This document shows positions 8,179 to 64,000 of a DNA stretch of 64,000 nucleotides, in pieces. Within the stretch, counting starts at the first letter, position 1, and every line of letters begins with the position of its first letter. The notes beneath the pieces were generated by a model. It worked only from the letters and a program-made list of their open reading frames with translations, was not told the origin of the DNA and did not search any database. Both the position numbers and the translations under genes were made by a program. Source of the stretch: Chryseobacterium daecheongense (GTDB lineage Bacteria; Bacteroidota; Bacteroidia; Flavobacteriales; Weeksellaceae); the NCBI GenBank assembly GCA_027920525.1, contig CP115858.1, positions 310,001-374,000 of the forward strand, written 5' to 3'.

Positions 8179-8245
8179 CCCTGTTAAAAAAAGCGAAATC
8201 CGAAAAGCTTAATAGAGTAGGAGAAAATTAAACTGTTTATTAATT

Positions 8246-44662: not shown

Positions 44663-44943
44663 GATTATAGATTTTGGTATACCAATTTAAATAAATATTA
44701 TCAATCTCTAAGAAAAAGTAGGGCAGTTTTGAATATATACTTAAAATGGATTCATGATCAATTGACTAGAATAAGCAAAAGTCATGTTATTAATACTCGA
44801 TTTGTCAATTTCACCTGATAACATAAATGAGTAAAATTGAAGACTCACAAGCTTTTTGCTGGTTTTTGCTTTAAGTGCAATTGAAAGGATTCTTCATCTA
44901 AACCTTATTTTTAGTTAATTAAGAAAATGTGAACAACATAAAA

Positions 44944-45134
44944 TTATGCGATAAACGAAATTTAGGGTTGAAGGGTGAAGATTTAGGTTACTCTATTATG
45001 GGTGTTTCACCGTAAAATGAAAAAATGATATTAATAAAGCTTAAAAATAAAATGATTTATAGATTTCCATTATTAGACTTTTTAATTTGAAATTATTGAC
45101 TAGATTATATTGGACTATATTGTTATGCGATAAA
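44944..45134. repeat. Direct repeat TTATGCGATAAA x2 upstream of the PKS
   Basis: The 12-mer occurs exactly at 44944-44955 and 45123-45134 (179 bp apart); a partial copy TTATGCAGAGAATAA is near 45177. It may be a regulator site of the cluster. Confidence 0.35.
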
Positions 45135-45418
45135 GCTTTACAGTTAATAAAAAATTCACCCTGATGTGATTATTGTTATGCAGAGAATAATATTGGTCTA
45201 AAAGCTTTATAATGAATAAACTAACTGCAATATCTCAATTTGTTATATTTAATTTAATTAAACAACCTTATAATTTAATATTATTTTAATGCTGTTTGTA
45301 TTAATAAAAAACTTACATTAGCATATCACCAAAATGAGACATAAAGAATCAAAAAGTATGAAAAGCCTATGAATAAAGGCTTTATATGTTAAAACTAAAT
45401 GAACAAAATTAAATTTCT

Positions 45419-45553
45419 ATGAAAAATGTGTCAACACAAAAAAAAATTAAACACCTGTTCAGGGTCTTTGAGACTTTTAATCCTAACCTGAACAAATTTT
45501 CATCTACGGATCACATTCACTCTTCCAAAATATTGAATTTAATACGGCATTAA
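45419..45553 (+). CDS. Possible 44-residue leader peptide in the PKS 5' region
   Basis: ATG 45419 to TAA 45551-45553, encoding a basic peptide (KNVSTQKKIKHLFRVFE, ending SKILNLIRH). It overlaps the inverted repeat GTTCAGG (45457-45463)/CCTGAAC (45487-45493), within which GTCT-TTG-AGAC forms a smaller hairpin. No similarity recognised. It could be a translated leader of an attenuator or chance. Confidence 0.3.
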   Translation: MKNVSTQKKIKHLFRVFETFNPNLNKFSSTDHIHSSKILNLIRH

Positions 45554-45673
45554 TCATCTACCGCTAAATATTCTATAGAATACACTTTATGTGAGGCTAT
45601 TTTAGAACAACCCAATGATTATAAGATCAGGTGGGTGGGATAGCTTGTTTCTATTTTAAAAAAACATATCAAC

Positions 45674-48600
45674 ATGGAAGATACTTCAAAAAATAATCTT
45701 CAGCTGGATAACCAGTTGAACAGGACAGATATTGCCGTTATTGGAATGTCATGCAGGTTTCCCGGAGCGGATAATTATCATGATTTTTGGAATAACCTTA
45801 TCAATGGAACCTTCAGTGTAACGGAGATTCCGGAATCGCGTTGGGATTGGCGGGAATACTATGGTGATCCCGCGTCGGACATACCAAAAACTAATAGCAA
45901 ATGGGGAGGATTTATCAATGATATGGATAAATTTGATCCTTTATTCTTTAATATATCCCCTAAAGAAGCTAAATATATTGACCCCCAGCACAGAGTCTTT
46001 TTAGAGGCAGCGTGGCATGCAGTGGAAGATGCAGGATACAGCACGGAGAGCCTGTCTGGCAAAAAAGTAGGAGTGTATGTTGGGGTTTCCAAAAATGATT
46101 ACGCAGAAATGCTGCAATCTACTCATCAGGAGATTAGCTCGTTCGTTTCTACTGGTACGGTACATTCTATTTTGGCTAACAGGGTTTCTTTTTTCCTTGA
46201 TATCAGAGGGAAAAGTGAAGTGGTAGATACCGCTTGTTCCAGTTCTTTGGTGGCATTGCATAATGCTATCAGGGATATTCGTTCAGGAAATTGCGAATCT
46301 GCTCTGGTAGGTGGTGTGAATGCATTGATTACACCAACCATGTATTTGTCTCACGGGAAATCAGGGATGCTCTCCTCAGAAGGTAAATGCAAAACCTTTG
46401 ATGAAAGTTCTGACGGATACGTACGTGGAGAAGGAGTAGGATGTATTTTCATAAAACCATTGTCTGCGGCAATAGCAGATAACGATCGTATTATCGGTGT
46501 GATTAAAGGAACAGCAGTGAATCATAATGGCCGTTCCAATTCATTGACTTCCCCAAGCGTACGTGCACAGGCTGAAGTAGTAAATGCTGCTTTGGAAGAT
46601 GCTGCTTTGGAAGCAGGAAATGTAAGCTATATTGAAGCACACGGTACGGCAACGCCATTGGGTGATCCTATTGAGATCAGTGCTTTGAAAAAAGTCTACA
46701 GTCAGTATGGAGCGGATGAAAATATCAATTGCACTTTAGGGGCACTAAAAACCAATATTGGTCACCTGGAAAGTGCTGCGGGTATAGCTGGGCTTATCAA
46801 AGTTTTGCTATGTATGCAGAATGGAAAAATTCCGGGGATATTGCATCATAAAAAGCTGAATCCATATATCGATTTAAAAGGAAGTCCTTTTGTTATTTCT
46901 ACTGAAAATACAGAATGGAAGCCTTCTGAAAGCGGAATTCAAAGTGGAGCATTGACAGCCGGGGTAAGTTCTTTTGGAATGGGGGGAGTAAATGCACATG
47001 TTATTTTACAGGCGTATGATGGAGAACAAATCAGAAATACGGAGGAAAACGTAAAGAGTTATACCATCCCATTATCTGCAAGAACAGAAAAACAGTTAAA
47101 AGCATATGCTGAAAGAATTACAGATTTTATAAGAAAAAATAGGACAGAATTACGCATACAAGATATTGCCTTTACCCTTCAAAACGGAAGAGATACGATG
47201 GCTGCTAAAGCTGTTTTCGTAGTTTCTGACGTAGAAGATCTTATTAAGCAGTTAGAAGAATATATTTCCACAGGAAAAATTAACAAAACCGAGAAGGATG
47301 CTGAAAATCAACTGGCTGATGGTGTAAGAATTTCTTTACCGGGATATCCTTTTGAAAGAAGAAGATGCTGGATGGATGGAGCTTCTGTTTCAGTGGCCAC
47401 TTCAAATTCAGCAATTGTTCGGGAAGTGGGATCACCATTGATGCAGTTTTTAAACAAAGATCAGCAACAATGGGAATATGAAGCTCTTTTACAATCAACA
47501 AATTATTTTATTCGTGATCATGTAGTGCAAGGCGAATGTATGATGCCGGGAGTTGTTTATCTGGAAATTGCAAGATCGGTAGCAGAACAGGCTTGTGGAC
47601 GTCCGGTTAATGAATTGAATGATGTATGCTGGATGCATTCGGTAAAAGTATATGAAGAGAATGTTCCTTTACAGATCAAACTTACACCAATAAATACAGG
47701 ATTTTCATTTGAAATCACAACTACTGACGGGGTTCACTCCAATGGAAATGTCTCACTGAAAAGCAATACAACTTCCGCAGGATCTATTGACTTGCAAAAA
47801 ATAAAACAACGTTGCTCCACTGTAAAAATAGCAGAAGAAATCTATCAGGAATTTGCAAAAGAAGGTTTGGCTTACAAGGAAACTTTTCAAACCATAACAG
47901 AAGGCTTTTTTGCCTCTGATGAAGCAATATGCCTATTAAAACCTACTAAAAAAGAAAATCCGGTTTCCTCAAAAGTCTGGGAACCGTCTCTATTAGATGG
48001 GGTTTTTCAAACCGTAGTTGGATTATGTATCTGGGGTAATGTAGAAGCCCAACATCAGTTATTACCATTTTATTTAAAAGCGATCCGTTGTTATGGTAAT
48101 CTGGCAGATGCTCATTATGCTTATGTCAAAAAATCAGATACATACCAGAATGGAAAAAGGTTTTCATTTGATCTGTTTTTGTGTGATGAACATGGAAATG
48201 TGATCCTTGAATTTAATGAATTTGTGAAAAGAGCTTATAAATCAGGACCTGTGACCATTGAGGAAACGGCTGTACCTGTTATTGAGAGCTTACATTATAC
48301 GACCGATTGGCTAGAAAGACCATTAGGAATCCACGCAGAAAGACCTGCTTCTGTTATTATTTTTGATACGGACGCTTTATTATACGAAAAGATAAAGGCA
48401 GAATTGGGTTATACAAAACCAGTTTTGGTATTACCGGGGGATTCTTATGAGAAAAAAGATCAATACACCTATCAGTTTGATGTTGCAGATACGGCATCTT
48501 TTAAAAATCTGCTTAAAGATCTTGAAGAAGACGGAATGGTAACGGATAACTGGATCTACAGATGGGGAATGAGCCGTGGTGAACAGGTCGCCGAGAATAT

Positions 48601-51600
48601 GCAGGATATTTATGCATTGTTGTATCTGTCGCAAGCTTTAATTACTGCTGAATATTCTGGACGTATTAAGTTGCTGTTTGCCTACAATTATAATGATACA
48701 AAATCTGCTGCTATACAGCAAATGGCAGGTGGGTTTGCCAGAACCTTGGCTTATGAGAACCCAAGGATTTCAATTCTAACATTAGGCATCAGTGAGGCAG
48801 ATATATCTTCTTATCAGGATATCATTGTGCAGGAAATGACGCATTATGTGATGGCTCCTCTCCTGGAAGTAATTTACCGTAACAGACTAAGACAGGAAAG
48901 AACCGTTGTTCCGGTAAAACAACTGGACAATGCATCATCAGAACTGTTGTTAAAAGAAAACGGATGTTATATCATTACTGGTGGCACCGGTGGTTTAGGA
49001 ATGGTATTCGCGGCTTATTTGGCGGAACACTATAAGGCCAATATTATATTAATAGGCCGAAGCTTAAAGAATGAAGCCATTGAAGAAAAGCTTCAGCAAT
49101 TAAAACAACTTGGAGGAAATGCAGCATACTACAGAGCTAATGTGGCTGATAAAAGAGCACTTTCTGTGGCTATTTCCAAAATCAAAAAGAAATGTAAAAC
49201 CATTAATGGAGTCATTCATGCAGCTGGTCTGATTGAAGACTCTTTTATCATCAATAAAAAAGCGGATTCATTTGAGAGGGTGATCACTCCAAAAGTATAT
49301 GGAACGATCAATCTGGATGAATGCCTTCAGAATGAAACGCTTGATTTCTTTATCGTATTTTCTTCAATAGCTTCATTGATGCCTAATCAGGGACAATGCG
49401 ACTATGCTTCTGCCAATAATTTCCTTGATCATATGATGGAAATCAGAAACAGAAGAGAAATAGAAAAAGGAAATCATGGAATCAGTCTGGCTATTAACTG
49501 GCCTTTGTGGGAAAGTGGAGGAATTACGGTCTCCGATGAAGAACGAGAACATTTATGGCAGGTATTCGGAATGAAACCGATGCTTAATGAAGATGCCTTA
49601 AAAGGTTTTGTAAAATTATTAAGCATAAACAATACCTCAATATCTGGTCAGGCGGTATTGATTGAAGGAATTGCAGCTAAAATAGAATCTCACCTAAGTG
49701 TTGAGCATGTATTTGATCAAGCCCATAGTGAAAAAAGAGACTCTGAAAAAGGAGATTTCTCTTCGTTACTTAGAAATATGATTGCTGATATTTTACCTAA
49801 AACTTCAGTCATAACAGATACAGACAGCTTCAATAAATTAGGTCTTGATTCTTCAGGATTGGTAAAGCTTTCTGCAAAATTGACAGAATTAGTGGGAGCA
49901 ACAATCAATCCGGTTTTATTGATTGAATACAATACCATCAAAAATCTTGCTGCTAATATTGCCAACGAGGTTCCATCTTTTGATCCTGAAAAGATCAGAG
50001 AATCTCTGCCAAACGACACTACAAAGAGCTATATAGCAACTACTTCATTGGTAGATGCTGAACGATCAGACGTAAAGAACTTACTGTTTAGAAAACGATA
50101 TAGCAATGAAGAATTCTTTATGCAGGATCATGTGGTGGATGGAAAATACAATGTTCCGGGAGCCTGCTACATTGAAATGGGCAGACAGGCTGCCACATTG
50201 CTTGGAAAAAGGATCTGCAGTTTATCCAATAATTACTGGCCGGAAGTATTATCATCAGCAGGGCCTGCAATCAATGCTTTTATTCAGATGGTACCAAAGG
50301 GTTCATTGTATGCTTACGAAATATTTAGTGAAGATACCAATGGTCGAAAAACAGTACATGCAATGGGTGATGTCAACATGGAAACATCCATTGAACCGGG
50401 CGAACTGGGAACTTTTGATATTCAGGCAGCTCAAGAAAAATTAAATATAAGTATAAGCAGGGAAACGGTTTATGAACAAATCATCGCTGAAGGATTACAC
50501 GTAGGACCTTCTTTTATGCCGATGAAGGAACTGTGGACCAACAAAGAAGAAGCTCTAGGACACCTAATCTTGCCTTTACACGTGGCAGAAACATTGTCAG
50601 ATTATATTTTACATCCGAGTATGCTTACAGGAGTATTCCAGACCGCTATTATTAATAATAAGCCTAATGGTTTGGAAAACTCCAAATACATTCCGGTGGC
50701 CATAGATGAGATTGTATTTACAGGTCAGATTCCTGCGGAGTGTTACGTACATACCATAGCTCACGAAGCTAACAAAACCAGAAGCGGCATCAGAAAATTT
50801 GATGCTCAGGTGATGGATATTGAAGGAAATATTATTGCCAAACTTAATGGGTTTTCAATCAAAGAAACAACCAATGCATCCATTACTGTAACTTCAACTC
50901 AATCAGTAGCCCCAAGAGTGAAAGCTGTTGAGAGTGGTGAACTTGCGATAGAACGTATTGAAAGTCTTTTGAAAACATTGTTACACGAAGGAGTTGGTCT
51001 GGAAGAAGAGGAAATGGATGCTGAAACATCTTTTGAAGAACTGGGAATTAACTCCAGAATGATCATCGATCTGAATAGATTGTTAGCAAAAACCTTCGGA
51101 AACTTATCCAAAACCCTATTTTTTGAATACCGCAATATCAATGAGCTGGCAGGGTATTTTCAGAAAAAACATGCGGGTGTATTAAAAGATCTATTAGGTG
51201 AACCGGAAGAAATTGATTCAACACCGGAAAGGGTAGAAGAGATTGCTTCTGTTGAGCATTCAACAGAAAAAAGCACAAACAAAGACATTGCTATTGTTGG
51301 AGTGAGTGGAAAATATCCAAAATCGAATACGCTTTCTGATTTCTGGGATTTGATGAAAAAAGGAGACGACTGCATTGAAGAGATTCCGCAGGATCGTTTT
51401 GATTATAAGGGACATTTTGATGAAGATAGAGAAAATGGATTGTTATATGCCCGTTGGGGTGGTTTTATCAATGATGTTGATCAATTTGATCCATTATTTT
51501 TTAATATCTCACCAAGAGAAGCAGAGAAAATCGATCCTCAGGAAAGGTTATTTTTAGAGGTAGTCTGGTCTACGTTGGAAGATGCCGGAATTACCCGTGA

Positions 51601-54600
51601 GAAACTCACAGAACAATCTAAGAAAGTAGGTGTTTTCGTAGGTGCATTATGGCAGCCATACGTTAACCTTGGAATAGAAGAAACAGCCAAAGGAAATCCT
51701 GTCGCTCCAAGTGGCCTTTTATACAGTATTCCTAACAGAGTTTCTTACTTCTTTAACTGGACAGGGCCAAGTATGGCCATAGACACTGCTTGTTCTGCAT
51801 CATTAACGGCTTTACATTATGCCTGTGAAAGCATCAGAAGCGGAGAATCGGAAAGCTGTATTGCCGGAGGTGTGAACTTATCATTGTCATTGAGCAAATA
51901 TTTATTCCTGAGTCAGAATAATTTCTTAGCCAGTGACGGACGTTGCAGAAGCTTTGGTATTGGAGATGGTTATGTACCAGGTGAAGGGATCGGTGCAGTT
52001 TTGCTTAAACCTCTGGAAAAAGCAATTGCGGATGGTGACCAGATTTATGGGGTGATCAAAGGAACTACCGTTAATCATAATGGAAGAACCAATGGATATA
52101 CCGTACCAAGTCCTAATTTACAAGGGGAATTGATTCAGTCTGCTTTGCAAAAGACAGGAATTGATCCACGCACCATATCGTATGTAGAAGCTCATGGAAC
52201 AGGAACATCTTTAGGAGATCCTATTGAAATGACGGGACTTTGTAAAGCTTTTGATGAATATACAGATGATAAACAATTTTGTGCCATCGGTTCTGTAAAA
52301 TCAAACATCGGGCATCTGGAAGCCGCAGCGGGTATTGCAGGACTGACAAAAATTCTGTTACAGTTTAAACACCAGCATTTAGTACCATCTATTCATTCTG
52401 CAACACTGAATCCGAATATCAGTTTTGAAGATACACCCTTCTATGTTCCTCAAAATTTAGCGCTATGGAAAAGACCGGTGATCATTAATCAGAACGGACA
52501 ATCAGAAGAATTGCCATTAAGAGCGATGTTAAGTTCTTTTGGTGCGGGTGGAAGTAATGCTCATCTTATTATCGAAGAATTCAGAGCACCAGAGCAGACT
52601 TCTAAAAATGAATTAGAACAGGATCCTGCGATCATTGTCTTATCAGCTAAAAATGAAGAACGTCTACAGGAACAGGTATTTAACTTAAAGTATACTTTAG
52701 AAAAAGATAACACCTTATCATTGGCGGATATCGCTTATACTTTACAAACAGGAAGAGAAGCCATGGAAAACCGGGTAGCTTTTGTTGTGAAGGATATTCC
52801 ATCATTAATAGGTTTACTGGATGACTTTTTAAAAGATACAGATTCTCAAAAAACATATACAACAGGAACCTGTAAAATAGGAAAAGGTGAAGAAAAATCT
52901 ACCGAAGTTCAGAATAGGATCAATGCCGGAGATTGGGCTGGAATTGCTGATCTATGGATACAGGGATCTGTATTCGACTGGAATTTGCTTTACGCTGAAA
53001 AACAACCTCGTAAGATCAGCCTGCCTACCTATCCTTTTGCAAGGGAACGCTACTGGCTTCCTACTGCTGAAGGAAAATTGAATCCAACAGGAAAAATTGT
53101 TGATAGAACACTACATCCATTGGTACACCAGAATACATCTGACCTGGATCAACAACAGTTCAGCAGCACTTTTAGTGGTGAAGAATCATTCTTAGCGGAT
53201 CATCAGGTACACCATAATAAAATCTTACCAGGAGTTGCTTATCTGGAGCTGGCAAGGGCTGCGGGTAAATTCAGTACCCATAAGCAAGTTACCCAACTTA
53301 AAGAAGTAAGCTGGATCAATCCTTTCTGGGTTCATCAATCAGAAACACTTCACATAGGATTACACCGCGATCAGGAAGATGTGGTTTATGAAATATACAG
53401 TGGCCATGAAGACACCCTGATTACTCATAATAGTGGAAGACTTTCCAATGTTTTAACGGCAGCTCCTGCAAAAATGAATATTCAGAAGCTTAAAAAAGAC
53501 TGTGTCAATGAAATCACAGGATCAGAATTGTATAACGCCTTTGATTTAGAAGGATTAAACCTAAAGAGTAGTTTTCAGCAGGTAGAGACCTTATATGTGG
53601 CAGAAGAATATGCTTTGTCAAAAATAAAATTGGTGAATAACGAAGGTTGCGTATATCCGCCTTGTATTATGGATAGCCTTCTTCATGCCATTTATGGTTT
53701 AATGGATTCTTATTCATTGATATTGCCTTTTTATGCCGGAGAAATTAATTTCTATAAAGGACTTGAAGAAGCCCTGGAGCTTTGGGGTTATGCGGTGAGA
53801 AAAAAAGAAGGAGATAACGACAAGGTTGTAACTGCCGATTTTTATTTATTAAATGAAAACGGAGAAGCATTATTATCCTTTAAAGACTTTATCTTCCTGC
53901 CTTTGGGAAGCAAGGATTCCGATCATTCAGGAATAAAGACTTCTTCGAATGAAAAAGGAAAAGTAGTGTATTATCAACAGGAATGGAAAGAAGAAGCCTT
54001 AAGCTCAGAACAACTTGAAACCACCAATCAGATAATTCTTATTGCTGGTGGTGCCATAGATTTGTGCGATAAGCTTCAGGAAGAACTGGGACTGGAAGTT
54101 ATATCCATCAACCAGGAAAAGCCACTGGCTTTCTTCAATTCCGTATTATCTAAAATAAAAGAAAAAATAAAGGAGAAAGGGCGTACTCAAATTACGATCG
54201 TTTGTCAGAACAGTGATTACCCTGAGTATGGTTTTGTATCCGGATTGCTTAAAACAGCACATCTTGAGTATCCTGGAATTACAGGTAAAGTACTTGCCGT
54301 GGACCATTTATCCGTTAAGAATTTGGGAGAACTTACTTCAATGATTGAAGCGGAGCAGCATAATAAAGATGTTGAAGTAGCCTATACTAATGGTGTAAGA
54401 ACCGTGAAAAGATCAGTGTCTGTAACTTTTGACTCCCAAAATACAGAAGGCATAACCTTTAAAAAAGGAGGAGTTTACCTTTTAACGGGTGGTGCAGGAG
54501 GCTTAGGTTTGAAGATCGCAGAGCATATTTGCAGTAAAAATAATATTACACTGGTACTAACAGGCAGAAGTGTATGGTCTGAAACCATTAAGACTTTATT

Positions 54601-57600
54601 GTCTAAAATACCTGGAGCTGTTTATCATCATTGTGATCTGAGCAACTTTGAAGAAACCCAGAAACTGGTACATCTTATTAATCAGGAATATGGTCCTTTA
54701 AATGGCGTGATTCACAGTGCAGGTGTCCTTAGGGATAGTTATATCATCAATAAAACATCTTTACAGGTGGATGATGTTTTTGCAGCTAAAGTAGAGGGGA
54801 CAAAAAACATTGATGAAGCGACCAAAGATCAGCCATTAGATTTTATGGTATTCTTCTCTTCCATAACAAGCATTAAAGGAAATGCCGGACAGGCGGATTA
54901 TGCTGCTGCTAATGCTTATTTGAATACGTATGCGACTTACCGAAATACAGAAAGGAATAGTAAAAAAGCAAACGGTAAAACTTTAAGCATCTGCTGGACT
55001 TTATGGAAAGATGGCGGAATGCAGGTGAATGAAGAAGACATAAAGCATTTGGAAACACACCTGGGATCACTTTCACTTCCATCCGCAGATGGTATAAAGG
55101 CTTTTGATACTTTACTAAAAAATGGGAAAGGAGAAATTCTGGTTACCTATGAAAACATTCATGAAGATGTACAGGTTTCTAAAATTAAGGTAGAAGATGC
55201 TCCAATAGCCCAAGTAGCTATTGGTCAATCTGAAATTTCAGAAAAAGTTTCAGGTAAAATTATCGAAACAGTAGCAGCGTTGTTAAAATTAAACCCTGCG
55301 GCTATTAAAAGAGACAAAGCATTTGGTGATTACGGTTTTGAGTCCGTTTCACTAACCAGATTTGCCCGCCAGTTAAATGCATTTTATGAGCTTAAATTAT
55401 TACCCACTGTTTTTTATAATTATCCGACGATCAATGATCTGAAAGATTTTTTAATGGAAGAACATTATGTGTCAGTAGCTCAAAAACACAGCTCATCTGT
55501 AGTTGTAAAATCAGAAGAAGTTCAACCTACTATGATCACACACAAACGAGTTGCTTTCAATAATGAGGGGCGTACCGCATTACCAAAAACAGCTGTGAAT
55601 GTCATCAGTAACAATACTGATACAACACAAAAAGCAGTTGCTATTATTGGGATCAGTGGACGTTTCCCTGGGGCAGATGATTTAGAGGCTTTCTGGAAAA
55701 ATATCAGTCAGAATAAAGATCTGATCACTGAAATTACCCCAGACCGATGGGATTGGAAAGCGTATTACGGAGATCCGTTAAAAGAAAAAAATAAGACCAA
55801 AGCTAAATGGGGCGGACTGATCTCCGACATTGATAAATTTGATCCTTTATTCTTTAACATCTCTCCCCGTGAAGCAGAACTGATGGATCCACAACAAAGA
55901 ATCACTCTGGAGGCCGTATATCATGCTCTTGAAGATGCAGCAATTGCACCGGATAAGATCAAAGGAAGCGACACCAGTATTTTTATTGGAGTTTCCACAT
56001 CCGACTATTCTATGTTAGTGAATAATCAGTCTGATTTAACCGGACAAGGACATTATGCAACCGGATCAGTACATTCTATCCTGGTCAACAGAATATCTTA
56101 TTTATTAGATATTCGTGGGGCAAGCGAGCCTGTGGATACCGCTTGTTCTAGTTCACTGATTGCCATTCACCGTGCCGTAGCACACATCAGAAACGGAGAT
56201 AGCAAAATGGCAATTGCCGGAGGGGTAAATGCACTTCTTTCTCCGGAATTAACTCTTTCATTCAGTGAATCTGGAATGCTAAGCGTAGATGGACGTTGTA
56301 AAACATTTGACGAAAGTGCTAATGGTTATGTACGTGGTGAAGGAGTAGGAGTGGTGATCTTAAAATCATTGGAACAGGCAGAAGCAGACGGAGATCATAT
56401 TTACGGAATTATCCGTGGAAGCGCGGAAAACCATGGTGGAAAAGCCAATACACTAACTTCTCCAAACCCGAATGCTCAAAAAGAACTTTTGGTTAAAGCG
56501 TATAGCAGAGCAGGAGTTCATCCGGCAGATGTAAGCTATATAGAGGCTCATGGAACAGGAACTTCTCTGGGAGATCCCATTGAAATAGAAGGATTGAAAT
56601 TGGCTTTTAATACTTTATATAAACAGAGAAATCAAACTCCGGCAGAAGCTGCCTATTGCAGTATTGGAAGTGTCAAAACAAATATTGGCCACCTGGAAGC
56701 TGCTGCAGGAATTGCAGGGGTAATGAAGGTCATCCTGGCGATGAAACATAAAACACTGCCTGGAAATCCTCATTTGATTCAGACCAACCCATATTTAAAT
56801 CTGGATGGAAGTCCGTTCAGGTTGCAGCAAAATACAACCGACTGGAATGTTGCTGACAACAAACCAAGAATTGCGGGAATCAGCAGTTTTGGTTTTGGAG
56901 GAGCCAACGCTCATTTAATTATAGAAGAATATATTCCTACCAGAAAAGGAATTGTGGAAGGACAGCCTGCTGTTATTTTATTATCTGCAAAAAATGCAGA
57001 CCGGTTAAAAGCTAAAGCATTGCAGTTGAAAACATTCTTGCAAGCTCATCCGGATACTGATTTACACGAACTGGCTTACACGTTGCAATCAGGGCGTGAA
57101 GCGATGGAAGAGCGTCTTGCATGGATTGCAGAAAGCCAGGAAGATCTATTGACTCAGTTGGAGAACTACACCAATGGCAATAGCTTTGGATTCTATCAAG
57201 GAAATACCAATCAGGAGCAAATCGGCTTCCTTCTCGAGGGAACTGCAGGAAAAGCCTATGTGGAAACAGCTTTTAAAAATAATGAGATCAAAAGCCTTGC
57301 TCAGCTGTGGGTAAAAGGAATTGATGTTGATTGGAAACTATTGTACACAGATATGTTACCAAAACGCATAAGTCTCCCTGTTTATCCATTTGCAAGACAA
57401 CGGTACTGGATCCCTGATTCTCCTAAAAGAATAGTGCATGCACCAATCACAGAAAATCATCTGCATCCTTTGTTACATACCGATGAATCTAATGGTAAGC
57501 AAAAACAATACGCGGCAGTATATGATGGAACTGAATCTTTCCTTTATGATCACATCGTAAATGATGAGAAAATACTTCCGGGAGTAGCCTATCTGGAAAT

Positions 57601-60600
57601 AGCGAGAGCAGCAGGGGCTTTGAGCTCCCAAAAGCAAGTGGTAAAATTAAAAAATGTGAGTTGGCTGAACCCGCTAAAACTTGAAAATGGAATGGTCTCT
57701 ATTGCCGTTACATTGGATCCAGAACCAACAGGTCTTAATTACAAAATTTATAATCAGAAAAATAGCCAGCTTCTTTATGGAAACGGTTTGATCATTACCG
57801 GTGAGGGAGAACCTCTCGGAAGATATGATCTGGAAATGATGAAAACGGCCTGCTCAAATGTTATTCCTGGAGCAGAAGTTTATCACAATTTCAAAGAAAA
57901 CGGATTGAACCTTGGAAAGAGCTTCAGAGGAGTTGCCCAAATTAACGTAGGGGAGAATATCGCTTTATCAGAGATCCGTCTTGAAGAACTGGAAGGTTGC
58001 ATGTATACACCGGGTATTATGGACAGTCTCTTGCATACTATTTACGGATTGGTTATTTCCGCAGGAGAAGCCTATTCATTGGAGTTACCCTATTTTGTAA
58101 AAGAAGTATATTTTTATGAGCCTATAACAGATGCTTCAGTATTGTGGGGCTATGCCAGAAAAAGTGAAAATTACAAAGACGGCGATCAGGTCGTTGCATA
58201 CGATCTGGATCTCCTGAATAATGAAGGAGATGTATTGTTAAGCTTCAAAGATTTTGTGGCACTTCCCTTGGATGGTCTTGAAACTAAGGTACAGGAAGAT
58301 ACTCCTGACGAAACTGTTGAAAAATCGGTTGACGAACAAATAACAGCACCAGTTGAAGCAAGTTTGCTAAAGAAAAAAGCAACCGATAAGATCATCAGTA
58401 TTGTTGCTGAATTAGTAAGAATGGTGCCTGCCGAAATTGAAAATGATAAAAAATTCGGAGATTATGGGTTTGATTCCATTTTATTAACCCGTTTCAACAA
58501 TGAGCTCAACGGTTATTATGATCTGGATCTGATGCCAACGGTCTTTTATAATTATGCAACCATTAATAAGCTGGCGGCATTTATGACAGAAGAATATACG
58601 GAGGCGCTCACTGCATTACACGGGGAAGCTCCTGCTGCTCCAATAGTTAAACCGGTTGAAAAGCTCACGATAAAAAAGACCGCTTTTTCAACAACGGTGG
58701 CAACGCCTGTAAAGCAACCAGTAAAACAGTTCACTCCTTACAAACCAAAGCCACAATCCGTCAATGAACCTATTGCTATTATTGGGATGAGTGGACGCTT
58801 TCCGGGATCACCGGATCTGGATACTTTCTGGAAAAATATCAGCGAAAATAAAGACCTGATCACAGAAGTTCCCGCAGACCGATGGGATTGGAAAAAATAT
58901 GACGGAGATCCTTTAACGGAAAAGAATAAAACCCGATCCAAGTGGGGAGGTTTCCTTACCGATATCGATAAGTTTGATCCTGCATTTTTCAGTATTTCTC
59001 CCATGGAGGCTGAGCTAATGGATCCTCAACAACGTATTCTCATGGAGTCCGTATACCAGGCGCTGGAAGACGGTGGAATTGCAACAGAAAGCATTAAGGG
59101 GACCAATACCGGAATATTTATAGGAGTTTCTGCCTCTGACTATTTGATACGCCTTCGCCATGAAACCGATTTAGCGGGACAAATGCATACCACTACAGGC
59201 TCCGTACATTCCATGATGGTGAACAGGATTTCCTATTTACTGGATATCAATGGACCAAGTGAACCGGTAGATACGGCCTGTTCAAGTTCATTAATTGCCA
59301 TCCACAGGGCGGTTGAAAATATCAGAAACGGTATGTGTAATATGGCCATTGCAGGAGGAGTGAATGCACTACTTTCTCCAGAGTTGACCCTTTCTTTCAG
59401 CCAATCAGGAATGTTGAGCAAAGACGGAAGATGTAAAACGTTTGACCAGAGTGCCAATGGATACGTAAGAGGAGAAGGAGTAGGAATTATTGTCCTTAAA
59501 TCATTGAAACAGGCCATTGCAGATGGTGATCCTATTCATGCGGTGATCAGAAGTACCGCAGAAAACCATGGGGGAAGAGCGAACACCTTAACTTCACCTA
59601 ATCCGATTGCACAAAGAGATCTTTTGCTTCATGCCTATCGCAGTGCCGGAATCGATCCGCGTGATGTGAGTTATATTGAAGCTCACGGAACCGGAACACC
59701 TCTTGGAGATCCGATAGAAGCAGAAGGACTGAAGCTTGCATTTAAAGATTTATATAAAGATAAAGGACTTCAACAGCCTGCAGAACCGCATTGCAGTATC
59801 GGAAGTGTAAAAACCAATATCGGACACCTGGAATCTGCAGCAGGTATTGCAAGTACTATTAAAGTACTACTGTGTATGAAACACAATACATTGCCAGGAA
59901 ATCCACACTTAAAAAATCCTAATGAATACCTGAAATTAAACGGAAGTATCTTCCAGTTGCGAACAGAGACAGGTCCCTGGATCACATCCGATAACCGTCC
60001 TAAAATTGCGGGAATCAGCAGTTTCGGATTCGGAGGCGCCAATTCACATATTATCATTGAAGAATACCGACCTGATCAGACAACTCCTTATCAGGAAGAC
60101 GGCCAGTCCATTATTATACTTTCTGCAAAAACTAAAGACAATCTGAAACAGCAGGTGAGTAACCTTTTAGATTTTGTTCAAAAAAATCCTGAAGCGAATC
60201 TTTCTGATATTGCCTATACCCTGCAAAAGGGCAGGGATGAGATGGAAGAAAGACTGGCCTTGGTCGTAACCAATAAAATCGAATTGATGAGCAGACTGAC
60301 AGATTATCTTTCAGGAAATTCAGAACATGGATTTACAGGAAATATAAAACAGGATAAAACGGGTTCCGGAAATGCCTATATCAGTATTGCCATTGACAAT
60401 AAAGACCTCAATTCATTGGCAGGCTTATGGGTTAAAGGAGCATCTGTAGATTGGAACCTGCTATATATCAACGGACGTCCTTCGAAAATCAATTTACCGG
60501 TTTATCCGTTTACCAAAAACAGATACTGGATCCCTGTCAGTTCATTCCTGCTAAAAACAATGGCAAATACCAGAATTCATCCATTACTGCATATGAATGA

Positions 60601-63600
60601 ATCGGATTTAAATGAACAAAAGTATACCAGTATTTTTACAGGTGAGGAAGTTTTCCTGAGCGATCATAAAGTAAGAAACGAAAAGATATTGCCGGGAGTT
60701 GCTTATCTCGAACTGGCAAGAATTGCCGGAACATTGAGTACAGGCCAAAAGGTAACACAACTTAGAAATATCAGTTGGGTCAATCCGATTTCCATCGTGG
60801 ATGACTATGCAAAGATTTCAACCGCGATTTATAGGGATGGTGATCAGCTTTGCTATGAGGTTTATAACGATGAAGAAGTGGTACATGGTAATGGTCAGAT
60901 ATCGACCGATAAGCTTATCCAGCCGGAAAATATGGACATCAATACTTTGAAGGCTAAAGCCAATAAGGTATTGGATGGGAAAGGAATGTACAATGAATTT
61001 TTGGCCGCTGGACTTGATCTCGGTACTGCCTACCAGGGAGTTCAAAAGATGTATGCAGATGACCATGGTTGTTTAGCTAAAATTAATCTGACCAACCTAG
61101 AAGGCTTTATGTACACTCCTGGAATCCTTGACAGTATGCTCCATACCATTTATGGTTTCCAGCAACTAGCTGACGAAACGTATTCATTGGCACTTCCTTA
61201 TTTTATGGGAGAGATGAGCTGCTACCAGACATTAGAAGGACAATCATTGTGGGCATATGCACGAAAAAATGAGCAAACTAAATCAGAAGATAAGCTGGCA
61301 GCATACGATATTGATCTGATTAATGATCATGGTGTCGTTCTAGTAAGTTTCAGAAACTTCGTGGCCCTTCCGTTAGATGGTTTTAAACCCACAAAGTTAG
61401 TTAAAAAAGATACTGATACATTTATCTATCAGCCGGTTTGGGAAGAAATGGTTGCAAAAGACTCCTCCAAAGTACTTGAAACTGAGAAACAGTTCATTTG
61501 GCTTGCAGAAGGTAAAGATTCATTGGCAGAAACATTAAAAGAAAGATTGGGAATTCCGGTACAGACCATTGCAATCGATCAGCCAATCGAATATTTTACT
61601 ACAATACTTGAACAGCTTAAAAGCTACTTGACGAAAAATGCTTCAATGCATATCACAGTGGTTTACCCAAATCATCAGTATCCACAGGCAGGATTTATTA
61701 CCGGGTTGTTAAAAACGGCAGTTCAGGAAAATCCTGGAGTTACCGGACAGACCATCGGTGTAGACAGCTTCGATCCTGATTTTCTGGCAGAATTACTGAA
61801 AAATGAAGTAAGTAAAAATGCTGAAATCCGTTATGATCAGGGTATTTTCAAAACAAAACAGTTCAGACCGGTAGTAAAAGATATTCTAGCGGTAGATCAA
61901 ATGGCGATCCGTGAAAATGGAGTATACCTCATTACAGGTGGTGCCGGTGGTCTCGGACAGATTTTCGCGAAGCATATAAGCAAAACTAAAAATGTGAAAA
62001 TTATCCTGACAGGCAGAAGAACTGCAGATCAGGAAATAGAAAAACTACTGTCTGAAATTCCGGGAACAGTATATTATTCATGTGATATTACAGATTATCA
62101 GGACACAGAGCGATTGCTTACAACCATCAAACAAACCTATCAGGGATTGAATGGAATTATCCATAGTGCCGGAACGTTGAAAGATAGTTTTATTCTGAAT
62201 AAAACCCAGGAACACTTGCAACAGGTGCTTCATCCTAAAATTACAGGAGCGAGGGTATTAGATGAAGTAACAAAAGATGAACCTCTTGATTTTATGATGT
62301 TCTTTTCATCCGTTGCAGCAGTAACGGGCAATGCAGGACAATCAGATTATGCGTCGGCCAACACCTATCTGGATCATTATGTGGAATACCGAAATGAAGC
62401 CGCTGCCAAAGGACAGAGATCAGGAAAAACAATCAGTCTGAACTGGCCATTATGGAAATCCGGTGGAATGCAGGTAAGTGCAGCAGGAGAAAAATACCTT
62501 GAAAGTCAGTTTGGTATGATTCCAATGGCAACAGAAACTGGTCTTGAGATGTTCGATCTTATTCTGAAAGCCCAGTCAGGACAATATGCGGTGTATTTCG
62601 GTAAAGAAGAAGGAATTTCCAGAACGACAGGTAATGCAATTGCAGGGACCACTCAAAAAAATGTTTCAGTACCTAAAAGTACAAATGAAAATGTAGGTGG
62701 TTCAAAAACGGCGAAAGATAAGATCGTTAGAGAAGTGAGTGAAATTGTAGCAAAACTGCTTAAAATGGAGGTTTCTACCGTTGACCAGGAAACAGAATTT
62801 GGTGAATATGGTTTTGATTCCCTTTTAATGACCCAGTTTACCAGTGCATTGAATAATTTCTATGATCTTAAATTAATGCCTACGGTATTTTATAACTATC
62901 CGGCTATTGGAGTATTTTCAGAATTCCTGATCAAAGAATATCCAAACCTTGCAATAGAAAGTGAAAATGATTCAAGGGCTGTAACTCCAGCTCAGGATTC
63001 AACTCGATTTGATCAATTTTCCGGGCGTAAAAACAGAAAACATTCTTCACAATACAACAGCTCACCGGTAAAGGCAGCTCAAAAGCCAGCTGAAGAGGGA
63101 ATTGCTATTATAGGGATCAGCGGACGTTTTCCGGGATCACCTGACATCAATACTTTCTGGGAGAGAATTAAAAATAATGAAGACCTGATCACAGAAATCC
63201 CTGAAGACCGATGGAGCTGGCAGGAATATTACGGAGATCCTCAAAAAGAAAGCCGCAAAACCAAAGCAAAATGGGGTGGATTTATCAGCGATATCGACAA
63301 ATTTGATCCTTTATTTTTCAATATTTCGCCTAAAGAAGCTGCTTTAATGGATCCTCAGCAAAGAATTACCCTTGAAGCTGTATACCACGCTTTGGAAGAT
63401 GCAGGAATAGCCACTTCCGCATTAAGAGGAACCAATACCGGAACCTTTATCGGAGTATCTGCGGTAGATTATTCCATGTTATTGAATAACGGAACCGATC
63501 TTACAAGTCTGGCACAGTTTTCCACAGGTGCCGCTCATTCGATATTGGTGAACAGAATTTCTTATCTATTGGATATTCATGGACCAAGTGAGCCGGTGGA

Positions 63601-64000
63601 TACTGCGTGTTCAAGTGCATTAATTGCCATTCATCGAGGCGTAGAACACATCAGAAACGGACATTGCGATATGGCCATTGCAGGTGGAGTCAACGCCATA
63701 CTGTCTCCGGAACTGACGCTTTCCTTCAGCAGTGCAGGGATGTTGAGCGAAGATGGAAGATGTAAAACTTTTGATCAGCGTGCCAATGGTTATGTCCGTG
63801 GAGAAGGAGTGGGAATTGTGATCCTCAAGTCTTTAAGCAAGGCTGTAGCTGATGGTGATCATATCTACGGAGTGATCCGTGGAACGGCTGAAAACCATGG
63901 TGGAAGAGCTAATACGTTAACCTCTCCGAATCCCAATGCACAAAGAGATCTATTGGTAAAAGCATACCGAAATTCAGATATAGATCCACGTGATATCAGC
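45674..64000 (+). CDS. Giant trans-acyltransferase modular polyketide synthase, 3'-truncated by the window
   Basis: One uninterrupted frame from ATG 45674 runs to the window edge (6109 codons, no stop). The frame was confirmed at each KS start (51281, 55634, 58766, 63092). Order: KS1-DH1-KR1-ACP1-DH2-ACP2-KS2-DH3-KR2-ACP3-KS3-DH4-ACP4-KS4-DH5-KR3-ACP5-KS5(partial). All KS domains have the Cys (residues 188, 2040, 3491, 4536, 5979), and the four complete ones also have both catalytic His. No AT, ER, methyltransferase or thioesterase domain occurs; each KS is followed by a flanking linker ending in a motif like LPTYPFARERYW, as in trans-AT enzymes, so malonyl units must come from a separate AT. 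It condenses and processes an acyl chain on carrier domains in the cytoplasm. The product is unknown. Confidence 0.95.
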   Translation, partial: MEDTSKNNLQLDNQLNRTDIAVIGMSCRFPGADNYHDFWNNLINGTFSVTEIPESRWDWREYYGDPASDIPKTNSKWGGFINDMDKFDPLFFNISPKEAKYIDPQHRVFLEAAWHAVEDAGYSTESLSGKKVGVYVGVSKNDYAEMLQSTHQEISSFVSTGTVHSILANRVSFFLDIRGKSEVVDTACSSSLVALHNAIRDIRSGNCESALVGGVNALITPTMYLSHGKSGMLSSEGKCKTFDESSDGYVRGEGVGCIFIKPLSAAIADNDRIIGVIKGTAVNHNGRSNSLTSPSVRAQAEVVNAALEDAALEAGNVSYIEAHGTATPLGDPIEISALKKVYSQYGADENINCTLGALKTNIGHLESAAGIAGLIKVLLCMQNGKIPGILHHKKLNPYIDLKGSPFVISTENTEWKPSESGIQSGALTAGVSSFGMGGVNAHVILQAYDGEQIRNTEENVKSYTIPLSARTEKQLKAYAERITDFIRKNRTELRIQDIAFTLQNGRDTMAAKAVFVVSDVEDLIKQLEEYISTGKINKTEKDAENQLADGVRISLPGYPFERRRCWMDGASVSVATSNSAIVREVGSPLMQFLNKDQQQWEYEALLQSTNYFIRDHVVQGECMMPGVVYLEIARSVAEQACGRPVNELNDVCWMHSVKVYEENVPLQIKLTPINTGFSFEITTTDGVHSNGNVSLKSNTTSAGSIDLQKIKQRCSTVKIAEEIYQEFAKEGLAYKETFQTITEGFFASDEAICLLKPTKKENPVSSKVWEPSLLDGVFQTVVGLCIWGNVEAQHQLLPFYLKAIRCYGNLADAHYAYVKKSDTYQNGKRFSFDLFLCDEHGNVILEFNEFVKRAYKSGPVTIEETAVPVIESLHYTTDWLERPLGIHAERPASVIIFDTDALLYEKIKAELGYTKPVLVLPGDSYEKKDQYTYQFDVADTASFKNLLKDLEEDGMVTDNWIYRWGMSRGEQVAENMQDIYALLYLSQALITAEYSGRIKLLFAYNYNDTKSAAIQQMAGGFARTLAYENPRISILTLGISEADISSYQDIIVQEMTHYVMAPLLEVIYRNRLRQERTVVPVKQLDNASSELLLKENGCYIITGGTGGLGMVFAAYLAEHYKANIILIGRSLKNEAIEEKLQQLKQLGGNAAYYRANVADKRALSVAISKIKKKCKTINGVIHAAGLIEDSFIINKKADSFERVITPKVYGTINLDECLQNETLDFFIVFSSIASLMPNQGQCDYASANNFLDHMMEIRNRREIEKGNHGISLAINWPLWESGGITVSDEEREHLWQVFGMKPMLNEDALKGFVKLLSINNTSISGQAVLIEGIAAKIESHLSVEHVFDQAHSEKRDSEKGDFSSLLRNMIADILPKTSVITDTDSFNKLGLDSSGLVKLSAKLTELVGATINPVLLIEYNTIKNLAANIANEVPSFDPEKIRESLPNDTTKSYIATTSLVDAERSDVKNLLFRKRYSNEEFFMQDHVVDGKYNVPGACYIEMGRQAATLLGKRICSLSNNYWPEVLSSAGPAINAFIQMVPKGSLYAYEIFSEDTNGRKTVHAMGDVNMETSIEPGELGTFDIQAAQEKLNISISRETVYEQIIAEGLHVGPSFMPMKELWTNKEEALGHLILPLHVAETLSDYILHPSMLTGVFQTAIINNKPNGLENSKYIPVAIDEIVFTGQIPAECYVHTIAHEANKTRSGIRKFDAQVMDIEGNIIAKLNGFSIKETTNASITVTSTQSVAPRVKAVESGELAIERIESLLKTLLHEGVGLEEEEMDAETSFEELGINSRMIIDLNRLLAKTFGNLSKTLFFEYRNINELAGYFQKKHAGVLKDLLGEPEEIDSTPERVEEIASVEHSTEKSTNKDIAIVGVSGKYPKSNTLSDFWDLMKKGDDCIEEIPQDRFDYKGHFDEDRENGLLYARWGGFINDVDQFDPLFFNISPREAEKIDPQERLFLEVVWSTLEDAGITREKLTEQSKKVGVFVGALWQPYVNLGIEETAKGNPVAPSGLLYSIPNRVSYFFNWTGPSMAIDTACSASLTALHYACESIRSGESESCIAGGVNLSLSLSKYLFLSQNNFLASDGRCRSFGIGDGYVPGEGIGAVLLKPLEKAIADGDQIYGVIKGTTVNHNGRTNGYTVPSPNLQGELIQSALQKTGIDPRTISYVEAHGTGTSLGDPIEMTGLCKAFDEYTDDKQFCAIGSVKSNIGHLEAAAGIAGLTKILLQFKHQHLVPSIHSATLNPNISFEDTPFYVPQNLALWKRPVIINQNGQSEELPLRAMLSSFGAGGSNAHLIIEEFRAPEQTSKNELEQDPAIIVLSAKNEERLQEQVFNLKYTLEKDNTLSLADIAYTLQTGREAMENRVAFVVKDIPSLIGLLDDFLKDTDSQKTYTTGTCKIGKGEEKSTEVQNRINAGDWAGIADLWIQGSVFDWNLLYAEKQPRKISLPTYPFARERYWLPTAEGKLNPTGKIVDRTLHPLVHQNTSDLDQQQFSSTFSGEESFLADHQVHHNKILPGVAYLELARAAGKFSTHKQVTQLKEVSWINPFWVHQSETLHIGLHRDQEDVVYEIYSGHEDTLITHNSGRLSNVLTAAPAKMNIQKLKKDCVNEITGSELYNAFDLEGLNLKSSFQQVETLYVAEEYALSKIKLVNNEGCVYPPCIMDSLLHAIYGLMDSYSLILPFYAGEINFYKGLEEALELWGYAVRKKEGDNDKVVTADFYLLNENGEALLSFKDFIFLPLGSKDSDHSGIKTSSNEKGKVVYYQQEWKEEALSSEQLETTNQIILIAGGAIDLCDKLQEELGLEVISINQEKPLAFFNSVLSKIKEKIKEKGRTQITIVCQNSDYPEYGFVSGLLKTAHLEYPGITGKVLAVDHLSVKNLGELTSMIEAEQHNKDVEVAYTNGVRTVKRSVSVTFDSQNTEGITFKKGGVYLLTGGAGGLGLKIAEHICSKNNITLVLTGRSVWSETIKTLLSKIPGAVYHHCDLSNFEETQKLVHLINQEYGPLNGVIHSAGVLRDSYIINKTSLQVDDVFAAKVEGTKNIDEATKDQPLDFMVFFSSITSIKGNAGQADYAAANAYLNTYATYRNTERNSKKANGKTLSICWTLWKDGGMQVNEEDIKHLETHLGSLSLPSADGIKAFDTLLKNGKGEILVTYENIHEDVQVSKIKVEDAPIAQVAIGQSEISEKVSGKIIETVAALLKLNPAAIKRDKAFGDYGFESVSLTRFARQLNAFYELKLLPTVFYNYPTINDLKDFLMEEHYVSVAQKHSSSVVVKSEEVQPTMITHKRVAFNNEGRTALPKTAVNVISNNTDTTQKAVAIIGISGRFPGADDLEAFWKNISQNKDLITEITPDRWDWKAYYGDPLKEKNKTKAKWGGLISDIDKFDPLFFNISPREAELMDPQQRITLEAVYHALEDAAIAPDKIKGSDTSIFIGVSTSDYSMLVNNQSDLTGQGHYATGSVHSILVNRISYLLDIRGASEPVDTACSSSLIAIHRAVAHIRNGDSKMAIAGGVNALLSPELTLSFSESGMLSVDGRCKTFDESANGYVRGEGVGVVILKSLEQAEADGDHIYGIIRGSAENHGGKANTLTSPNPNAQKELLVKAYSRAGVHPADVSYIEAHGTGTSLGDPIEIEGLKLAFNTLYKQRNQTPAEAAYCSIGSVKTNIGHLEAAAGIAGVMKVILAMKHKTLPGNPHLIQTNPYLNLDGSPFRLQQNTTDWNVADNKPRIAGISSFGFGGANAHLIIEEYIPTRKGIVEGQPAVILLSAKNADRLKAKALQLKTFLQAHPDTDLHELAYTLQSGREAMEERLAWIAESQEDLLTQLENYTNGNSFGFYQGNTNQEQIGFLLEGTAGKAYVETAFKNNEIKSLAQLWVKGIDVDWKLLYTDMLPKRISLPVYPFARQRYWIPDSPKRIVHAPITENHLHPLLHTDESNGKQKQYAAVYDGTESFLYDHIVNDEKILPGVAYLEIARAAGALSSQKQVVKLKNVSWLNPLKLENGMVSIAVTLDPEPTGLNYKIYNQKNSQLLYGNGLIITGEGEPLGRYDLEMMKTACSNVIPGAEVYHNFKENGLNLGKSFRGVAQINVGENIALSEIRLEELEGCMYTPGIMDSLLHTIYGLVISAGEAYSLELPYFVKEVYFYEPITDASVLWGYARKSENYKDGDQVVAYDLDLLNNEGDVLLSFKDFVALPLDGLETKVQEDTPDETVEKSVDEQITAPVEASLLKKKATDKIISIVAELVRMVPAEIENDKKFGDYGFDSILLTRFNNELNGYYDLDLMPTVFYNYATINKLAAFMTEEYTEALTALHGEAPAAPIVKPVEKLTIKKTAFSTTVATPVKQPVKQFTPYKPKPQSVNEPIAIIGMSGRFPGSPDLDTFWKNISENKDLITEVPADRWDWKKYDGDPLTEKNKTRSKWGGFLTDIDKFDPAFFSISPMEAELMDPQQRILMESVYQALEDGGIATESIKGTNTGIFIGVSASDYLIRLRHETDLAGQMHTTTGSVHSMMVNRISYLLDINGPSEPVDTACSSSLIAIHRAVENIRNGMCNMAIAGGVNALLSPELTLSFSQSGMLSKDGRCKTFDQSANGYVRGEGVGIIVLKSLKQAIADGDPIHAVIRSTAENHGGRANTLTSPNPIAQRDLLLHAYRSAGIDPRDVSYIEAHGTGTPLGDPIEAEGLKLAFKDLYKDKGLQQPAEPHCSIGSVKTNIGHLESAAGIASTIKVLLCMKHNTLPGNPHLKNPNEYLKLNGSIFQLRTETGPWITSDNRPKIAGISSFGFGGANSHIIIEEYRPDQTTPYQEDGQSIIILSAKTKDNLKQQVSNLLDFVQKNPEANLSDIAYTLQKGRDEMEERLALVVTNKIELMSRLTDYLSGNSEHGFTGNIKQDKTGSGNAYISIAIDNKDLNSLAGLWVKGASVDWNLLYINGRPSKINLPVYPFTKNRYWIPVSSFLLKTMANTRIHPLLHMNESDLNEQKYTSIFTGEEVFLSDHKVRNEKILPGVAYLELARIAGTLSTGQKVTQLRNISWVNPISIVDDYAKISTAIYRDGDQLCYEVYNDEEVVHGNGQISTDKLIQPENMDINTLKAKANKVLDGKGMYNEFLAAGLDLGTAYQGVQKMYADDHGCLAKINLTNLEGFMYTPGILDSMLHTIYGFQQLADETYSLALPYFMGEMSCYQTLEGQSLWAYARKNEQTKSEDKLAAYDIDLINDHGVVLVSFRNFVALPLDGFKPTKLVKKDTDTFIYQPVWEEMVAKDSSKVLETEKQFIWLAEGKDSLAETLKERLGIPVQTIAIDQPIEYFTTILEQLKSYLTKNASMHITVVYPNHQYPQAGFITGLLKTAVQENPGVTGQTIGVDSFDPDFLAELLKNEVSKNAEIRYDQGIFKTKQFRPVVKDILAVDQMAIRENGVYLITGGAGGLGQIFAKHISKTKNVKIILTGRRTADQEIEKLLSEIPGTVYYSCDITDYQDTERLLTTIKQTYQGLNGIIHSAGTLKDSFILNKTQEHLQQVLHPKITGARVLDEVTKDEPLDFMMFFSSVAAVTGNAGQSDYASANTYLDHYVEYRNEAAAKGQRSGKTISLNWPLWKSGGMQVSAAGEKYLESQFGMIPMATETGLEMFDLILKAQSGQYAVYFGKEEGISRTTGNAIAGTTQKNVSVPKSTNENVGGSKTAKDKIVREVSEIVAKLLKMEVSTVDQETEFGEYGFDSLLMTQFTSALNNFYDLKLMPTVFYNYPAIGVFSEFLIKEYPNLAIESENDSRAVTPAQDSTRFDQFSGRKNRKHSSQYNSSPVKAAQKPAEEGIAIIGISGRFPGSPDINTFWERIKNNEDLITEIPEDRWSWQEYYGDPQKESRKTKAKWGGFISDIDKFDPLFFNISPKEAALMDPQQRITLEAVYHALEDAGIATSALRGTNTGTFIGVSAVDYSMLLNNGTDLTSLAQFSTGAAHSILVNRISYLLDIHGPSEPVDTACSSALIAIHRGVEHIRNGHCDMAIAGGVNAILSPELTLSFSSAGMLSEDGRCKTFDQRANGYVRGEGVGIVILKSLSKAVADGDHIYGVIRGTAENHGGRANTLTSPNPNAQRDLLVKAYRNSDIDPRDIS
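45725..49975 (+). other. PKS module 1: KS1-DH1-KR1-ACP1
   Basis: KS1 (residues about 18-450) starts 17 residues from the N-terminus, so there is no loading domain; active site VDTACSSSLVALH, then EAHGTATPLGDP and KTNIGHLESAAG. DH1 (about 593-850): HVVQGECMMP has the full HxxxGxxxxP, and SLLDGVFQT supplies Asp and Gln, so it is predicted active. KR1 (about 889-1340): TGGTGGLGMVFAAYL, Ser in FSSIASLMPN and Tyr in CDYASANN, predicted active. ACP1: GLDSSGL, phosphopantetheine Ser 1393. Confidence 0.9.
50100..51150 (+). other. PKS insert: DH-like domain (Asp lost) followed by ACP2
   Basis: Directly after ACP1 comes a second DH-fold domain (residues about 1476-1735) with intact HVVDGKYNVP (His 1486), but the second motif reads HPSMLTGVFQT, with Thr 1652 where DHs have Asp. 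ACP2 follows (LGINSRM, Ser 1794). A KS-less DH-ACP pair behind a complete module could be an enoyl isomerase, a cyclising (pyran-synthase-like) domain or an inactive relic. Confidence 0.75.
51281..55465 (+). other. PKS module 2: KS2-DH3-KR2-ACP3
   Basis: KS2 (residues about 1870-2305): IDTACSASLTALH, EAHGTGTSLGDP, KSNIGHLEAAAG. It is the most divergent KS, with GKYPKSNTLSDFWD at its start. DH3 (about 2473-2746): HQVHHNKILP (His instead of Gly in the motif) and IMDSLLHAIYG. KR2 (about 2761-3156): TGGAGGLGLKIAEHI, FSSITSIKGNAGQADYAAAN, predicted active. ACP3: GFESVSL, Ser 3224. Confidence 0.88.
55634..58610 (+). other. PKS module 3: KS3-DH4-ACP4, without a ketoreductase
   Basis: KS3 (residues about 3321-3752): VDTACSSSLIAIH, EAHGTGTSLGDP, KTNIGHLEAAAG. 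DH4 (about 3930-4200): HIVNDEKILP (Asp instead of Gly) and IMDSLLHTIYG. Then directly ACP4: GFDSILL, Ser 4268. There is no room for a KR between DH4 and ACP4 (about 35 residues). Confidence 0.88.
58766..62950 (+). other. PKS module 4: KS4-DH5-KR3-ACP5
   Basis: KS4 (residues about 4365-4797): VDTACSSSLIAIH, EAHGTGTPLGDP, KTNIGHLESAAG. DH5 (about 4965-5240): HKVRNEKILP (Asn instead of Gly) and ILDSMLHTIYG. KR3 (about 5251-5640): TGGAGGLGQIFAKHI, FSSVAAVTGNAGQSDYASAN, predicted active. ACP5: GFDSLLM, Ser 5716, followed by a Ser/Gln-rich linker to KS5. Confidence 0.9.
63101..64000 (+). other. PKS module 5: KS5, truncated by the window
   Basis: About 300 residues of a fifth KS (IAIIGISGRFPGSPDINTFW, Cys 5979 in VDTACSSALIAIH). 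The sequence ends before the HGTGT and NIGH motifs. The gene continues beyond the window, so the rest of module 5 and any release domain are outside. Confidence 0.9.

Follow-up and report, generated by a model that had tools for sequence, protein, structure and literature searches.

What does an open reading frame of more than 18 kb encode when it runs off the right edge of the stretch analysed, and does it belong to a complete pathway? The window is a stretch of 64,000 nucleotides, taken from bases 310001-374000 of a genome that forms one contig of 4,858,345 bases. A sequence-only reading had counted 6109 codons without a stop and proposed a trans-AT polyketide synthase (PKS), the first gene of a cluster continuing to the right. 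ORF analysis gave the same frame, with an ATG at 45674 on the plus strand and 6,109 codons without a stop to the window's end. In the complete genome the frame stops at genome position 381482 (window-equivalent 71482), giving a protein, PKS1, of 8,602 aa. Its start codon and N-terminus are kept in two other Chryseobacterium genomes. A chance origin of the frame is excluded because of its length, its Pfam scores (KS E-values down to 4.9e-93) and its low dN/dS. We read the whole locus as a complete six-gene trans-AT PKS-NRPS cluster, with PKS1 as the first gene, that would make a polyene-type chain ending in cysteine. From its sequence we give this reading a probability of roughly 0.8.

The proposed continuation to the right was borne out. 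PKS1 is followed on the same strand by PKS2 (window-equivalent 71493-92027, 6,844 aa), which begins after a gap of 10 bases, and by four smaller genes. These were identified by Pfam as a fused AT-ER (92145-94433, 762 aa), a PksD-like acyl hydrolase (94434-95405, 323 aa), an MBL-fold hydrolase (95488-96141) and a PPTase (96184-96927), all given in window-equivalent positions. The six genes span about 51 kb (genome 355674-406927), and a polyphosphate kinase gene (ppk) follows on the opposite strand. Two similar intergenic elements lie within the cluster, one before AT-ER (window-equivalent 92028-92144; genome 402028-402144) and one before the MBL gene (window-equivalent 95406-95487; genome 405406-405487). 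Their 18-base core, searched through the whole genome with up to 2 mismatches, occurs at these two places only, and similar copies stand at the same places in C. paridis G211 and in a third Chryseobacterium genome, G268. The element before AT-ER folds into a strong hairpin (z -4.5) and the one before the MBL gene folds weakly (z -1.65).

The left border also agrees with the sequence-only reading. Upstream, a gene that Pfam identifies as a methyltransferase (44033-44662, minus strand) faces away from PKS1. Between them, at 44663..45673 on the PKS1 strand, no start-to-stop ORF of at least 100 aa was found. By BLASTN and MAFFT, the upstream DNA aligns to G211 from about 44913 and to G268 from about 44979. 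This conserved part, about 0.7 kb of non-coding DNA (44913-45673), is 88% and 78% conserved in the two other species and includes a nearly invariant stretch of about 100 bases. The aligned region probably holds the promoter and 5' leader. A scan for sigma-70-type promoters upstream of PKS1 was uninformative (14 sites versus a mean of 11.4 in shuffled sequences). A Bacteroidota -33/-7 pair was not found on the plus strand upstream of PKS1, and one -7-like site lies inside the methyltransferase gene. Folding of a 391-nt stretch across the PKS1 start was not significant (z -0.96). A tRNA scan of the window found none, and the sole Rfam match in the window, DUF805b RNA (RF02914) at 8190-8223 with 46.1 bits, is far from the PKS genes.

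Pfam and domain HMMs gave the order KS-DH-KR-ACP-DH-ACP / KS-DH-KR-ACP / KS-DH-ACP / KS-DH-KR-ACP / KS-ACP / KS-DH-KR-ACP / KS for PKS1 and DH-KR-ACP / KS-DH-KR-ACP / KS-DH-KR-MT-ACP / KS-DH-KR-ACP / C-A-PCP-TE for PKS2. Together the two synthases hold ten KS modules and one NRPS module, and no loading module was found in the assembly line. Within the window, the earlier counts of five KS, five DH-like, three KR and five carrier domains proved exact, and all of these lie on the plus strand. Module 1 consists of KS1 (45728..46849; motifs DTACSSS and EAHGTAT), DH1 (47435..48235; both motifs present, HVVQGECMMP and LLDGVFQ), KR1 (48962..49513), ACP1a (49769..49954), a second DH-like domain, DH1b (50048..50866), and ACP1b (50969..51157). 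Module 2 follows with KS2 (51281..52396), DH2 (53114..53902), KR2 (54470..55012) and ACP2 (55256..55450; carrier serine in GFES). Module 3, which has no KR, comprises KS3 (55634..56773), DH3 (57464..58267) and ACP3 (58388..58582), and module 4 comprises KS4 (58766..59908), DH4 (60578..61372), KR4 (61919..62458) and ACP4 (62735..62926). KS5 starts at 63098, is cut by the window's end at 64000 and continues to window-equivalent 64237.

The class assignment depends on where the acyltransferases are. In agreement with the earlier statement that the synthase has none, Pfam Acyl_transf_1 matched two separate downstream proteins only; a search over both full synthases, which would also have found AT domains integrated further along, reported none. 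With the only matches lying outside the synthases, we consider an ordinary cis-AT modular PKS whose ATs had been missed extremely improbable. The trans-AT assignment thus stands, with AT-less synthases and a bifunctional AT-ER and a PksD-like hydrolase downstream. The AT of the 762-aa AT-ER has the motifs GHSLGE and KRGALM. The 323-aa protein scores 190.8 bits against PksD and 70.2 bits against PksC; it has the nucleophile motif GNSLGE and lacks the KRGALM stretch of the AT-ER, with its arginine associated with AT function. It looks like a PksD-type acyl hydrolase and not a second malonyl-AT. Of the functions that the sequence-only reading had suggested looking for to the right, AT and ER were found as the fused AT-ER and the TE was found integrated after the NRPS module. 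The HMGS cassette was absent, with no HMGS, decarboxylating KS or ECH for beta-branching among the six genes (355674-406927). A genome-wide search with PF08540 found one HMG-CoA-synthase-family frame, at 1804772, far from the cluster. It is perhaps the mevalonate enzyme, and a branch could still be supplied through it from outside the cluster.

The catalytic motifs of the KS, most DH and most KR domains are present (those of KS1 and KR1 were completed by eye). All eight KR carry the Asp that we take as the mark of D-hydroxyl-forming KR domains. DH9 has Cys in place of His, and KR9 has Cys at the position of the Asn seen in the other KRs; the output of module 9 is therefore uncertain. DH1b keeps its His, and the Asp of its second motif is changed to Thr (MLTGVFQ). 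These motifs fit an enoyl-isomerase domain, presumably a DH fold with His but no Asp. Among 25 PDB matches of DH1b, no recognisable enoyl-isomerase structure was seen.

On this architecture, the AT of AT-ER would load malonyl on the ACPs in trans and the PksD-like enzyme would clear stalled acyl chains. The chain would pass from PKS1 to PKS2 at the split between KS7 and the remainder of module 7. Modules 1-4 and 6-8 would mainly leave double bonds, for which module 3, with DH and no KR, would need a KR from elsewhere. Module 5 would leave a keto group, module 9 would add a C-methyl, and the last module would add an amino acid, most likely cysteine, before the TE releases the product. In the predicted backbone, the module-5 unit parts two polyene stretches, module 9 contributes a C-methyl, and an amino acid stands at the end.

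We compared the ten KS with 50 reference KS in a tree. The references came from four clusters in two genomes, which by organism and gene sizes we take to be those of bacillaene, macrolactin, difficidin and batumin, and their modules were scored without ERs. The ten KS are spread among the references in several clades, but some of the joins have weak support and the clades separate the types imperfectly. KS3, KS4 and KS5 adjoin eight reference KS, seven of which follow DH-KR modules. KS7-KS9 adjoin two, both after DH-KR modules, and their join with bae1_KS5 is weak (0.41). KS2 adjoins mln_KS4, which follows a DH|KR module. Since KS3-KS5 form one clade (1.0) and KS7-KS9 another (0.99), each trio counts by descent as one observation, not three; further reference KS that follow DH-KR modules sit elsewhere in the tree. 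Because of this common descent, the position of KS4 is weak evidence that module 3 still yields a double bond despite having no KR. KS6 pairs with KS10 (0.98) inside a wider and mixed clade of seven reference KS, where the join of the pair with the batumin KS is weak (0.31). Four of these seven follow unreduced modules, two of the four being at zero branch length from each other; among the others, dif_KS14 follows DH-KR-MT, and bat_KS3 and dif_KS8 follow reducing modules. In the batumin-type cluster of Pseudomonas batumici (G689:C48), KS5 and KS11 are at zero branch length from each other, which might reflect gene conversion or a fault of assembly.

The identity of the last residue was approached through the A domain. 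Its specificity residues, read by eye from anchor motifs, are D-L-Y-N-W-S-L-I, and the pattern D-L-Y-N-[WF]-S-L-I is found in all nine sequences compared, from Chryseobacterium to Chitinophaga. They agree with the cysteine code DLYNLSLI at seven of eight positions, the exception being W or F where the code has L. Among PDB entries, the highest-scoring single stretch belongs to BmdB of the bacillamide NRPS (433 bits), an enzyme linked to cysteine. The residues point to cysteine. The class could be right and the end group different, with serine, threonine, glycine or another residue added last: the code was read by eye, one position departs from the cysteine code, and the high-scoring PDB relatives include 6lta, a serine-type enzyme. 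Against the seven matching positions and their conservation in nine of nine sequences, we regard another residue as unlikely. The C domain has the motif HHIIFDG, that of an ordinary condensation domain, and is therefore not expected to close a thiazoline ring.

The nearest named proteins place the host in Chryseobacterium. Its cluster is not unique, as relatives with an identical or closely similar architecture occur elsewhere in the Bacteroidota. Among 173 Chryseobacterium genomes, seven have a trans-AT-type ER at E <= 1e-80. Three of them, our own, G211 (C. paridis) and G268, carry this cluster, with ERs 97-100% identical; the ERs of the remaining four (G191:C34, G700:C14, G221:C56 and G245:C1) are 45-59% identical. 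Several large synthase-sized frames surround the AT-ER in G191. The AT-ER is 94% identical in Chryseobacterium sp. Mn2064, PKS2 is 98.3% identical in Chryseobacterium sp. B21-037, and C. proteolyticum has a shorter PKS1 of 5,667 aa that is 98.1% identical. A class-wide sample of 395 yielded close relatives at E <= 1e-180 in one genome only, our own. PKS2 is matched near end-to-end in Pedobacter cryoconitis (72%), Mucilaginibacter sp. HC2 (61%), Chitinophaga sp. MD30 (56%) and another protein (57%). Seven PKS2-like proteins had their domains listed: four have the same order, including those of P. cryoconitis and Mucilaginibacter sp. HC2, two have one extra DH call and P0209 differs. P0121 and P0122 were compared by identity only. 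A PKS2 of 84% identity (P0123) is filed under Sinomicrobium sp. M5D2P17, by name another genus, which might reflect a wrong label or gene transfer.

The PKS1 relatives differ from ours at module 5. We compared six, of which one from Chryseobacterium (P0241) stops before ACP4. The five untruncated ones (Pedobacter sp. UYP1, C. pendula and three others) all match our domain order as far as KS5 and close with a terminal KR that is absent here, whereas our PKS1 has KS5-ACP and continues via module 6 to KS7. In all five this is a KR9-type domain, sharing 57-62% identity with KR9 and 26-32% with the next four KRs listed. ACP5 and ACP9 are each other's closest match (85.5 bits versus 61.6 and 57.8 for the next ones), and ACP9, of the same type, follows KR-MT in module 9. 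The KS5-linker region remains homologous to that of the relatives up to about residue 6380 (for Chitinophaga) or 6429 (for Pedobacter), immediately ahead of ACP5. Over 54 kb, the other two Chryseobacterium clusters can be aligned with ours without a gap of KR size, so they also lack the module-5 KR. Most simply, module 5 would once have been a KS-KR-MT-ACP module divided between two genes, and in Chryseobacterium its KR and MT would have been lost and the two genes joined; the ancestral MT is itself inferred. To judge from these comparisons, this is an exceptionally clear example of module remodelling in nature. A fuller proposal, that Chryseobacterium evolved a new compound by excising the module-5 KR (with the presumed MT) and fusing the two synthase genes, so that what had been an alpha-methyl-beta-hydroxy or keto unit is now a plain beta-keto unit midway along the polyene-cysteine product, at a site where clusters are exchanged, seems to us an even bet.

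The cluster is under purifying selection, and its substitution rates suggest that it is maintained. Five PKS pieces compared with G211 gave dS of 0.20-0.44 and dN/dS of 0.06-0.12, as against dS of 0.92 for the neighbouring ppk, the sole core yardstick for G211. In comparison with G268, dS was 0.53-0.83 for the PKS pieces, 1.96 for ppk and 2.31 for a Na/H exchanger gene. The dN/dS run left aside three left-flank genes; two right-flank genes had no G211 counterpart and one was saturated versus G268. Because the cluster is more alike between species than are its neighbour genes, exchange between species is suggested, although the MBL gene, with dS of 0.94 versus G211, behaves like ppk.

The site also appears to be occupied by different clusters from strain to strain. 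A genome of the same species, G222, has no AT-ER and has other genes at the site. On the left, its sequence matches ours at 98.1% identity as far as the methyltransferase gene extends (44662) and then turns to other sequence with a NusG-family gene up to the contig end. On the right, a match of 98.9% identity reaches back into the MBL gene, of which the last 80 bases are left (from window-equivalent 96062); past this remnant come genes whose products have DUF6734, LanC-like, alpha/beta-hydrolase and NRPS condensation domains. The two flanks (L143 and L144) are on different contigs, and the gap between them is not covered. The MBL remnant suggests that the cluster was replaced there. In G268, a single-contig genome, the PKS2 counterpart is split in three frames (G268:C1:394760-415280), through either sequencing error or decay. 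Both genomes would suit an assembly line that is silent or decaying in the strain, a relic and not a working pathway. We think this improbable, since the two synthases run through 46 kb without interruption both here and in C. paridis, and since dN/dS is 0.06-0.12.

The maintained cluster that we favour resembles the bacillaene cluster (pks/bae) of Bacillus in having an AT-ER, a PksD-type acyl hydrolase, giant AT-less synthases and modules split between KS and DH, and presumably also in its MBL-fold enzyme. It differs in module order, and it has a single terminal NRPS module with a TE where bacillaene has internal NRPS modules. An HMGS cassette, which is part of the bacillaene cluster, is not found within the cluster here. 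In the same phylum, the elansolid PKS of Chitinophaga is of the trans-AT kind, to go by the title of a cited paper (Teta 2010); its cluster is almost 80 kb and forms a macrolide (PMC9248904, seen in part).

The product could already be known, with its gene cluster unrecognised. We hold this to be rather unlikely: among the titles and abstract openings listed on trans-AT, polyketide or polyene compounds of Chryseobacterium, Pedobacter and Chitinophaga there was no match, in a literature to which subscription journals mostly did not belong, and those scanned tied no product to the Bacteroidota relatives. In the parts available to us, a survey counting 294 Chryseobacterium genomes named no trans-AT cluster in the genus (PMC10734526). 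The enzyme class is well known and ordinary in kind; the cluster family appears to be new and its product apparently unreported. This is an assembly line that is complete and conserved, apparently works, and had no product that we could find. If the proposed history of module 5 is true, the locus would be a natural domain-excision experiment with lines of the parent type surviving in Pedobacter and Chitinophaga. Set beside the lines of these genera, it would show a synthase before and after domain excision, a pair that polyketide synthase engineers could use directly.
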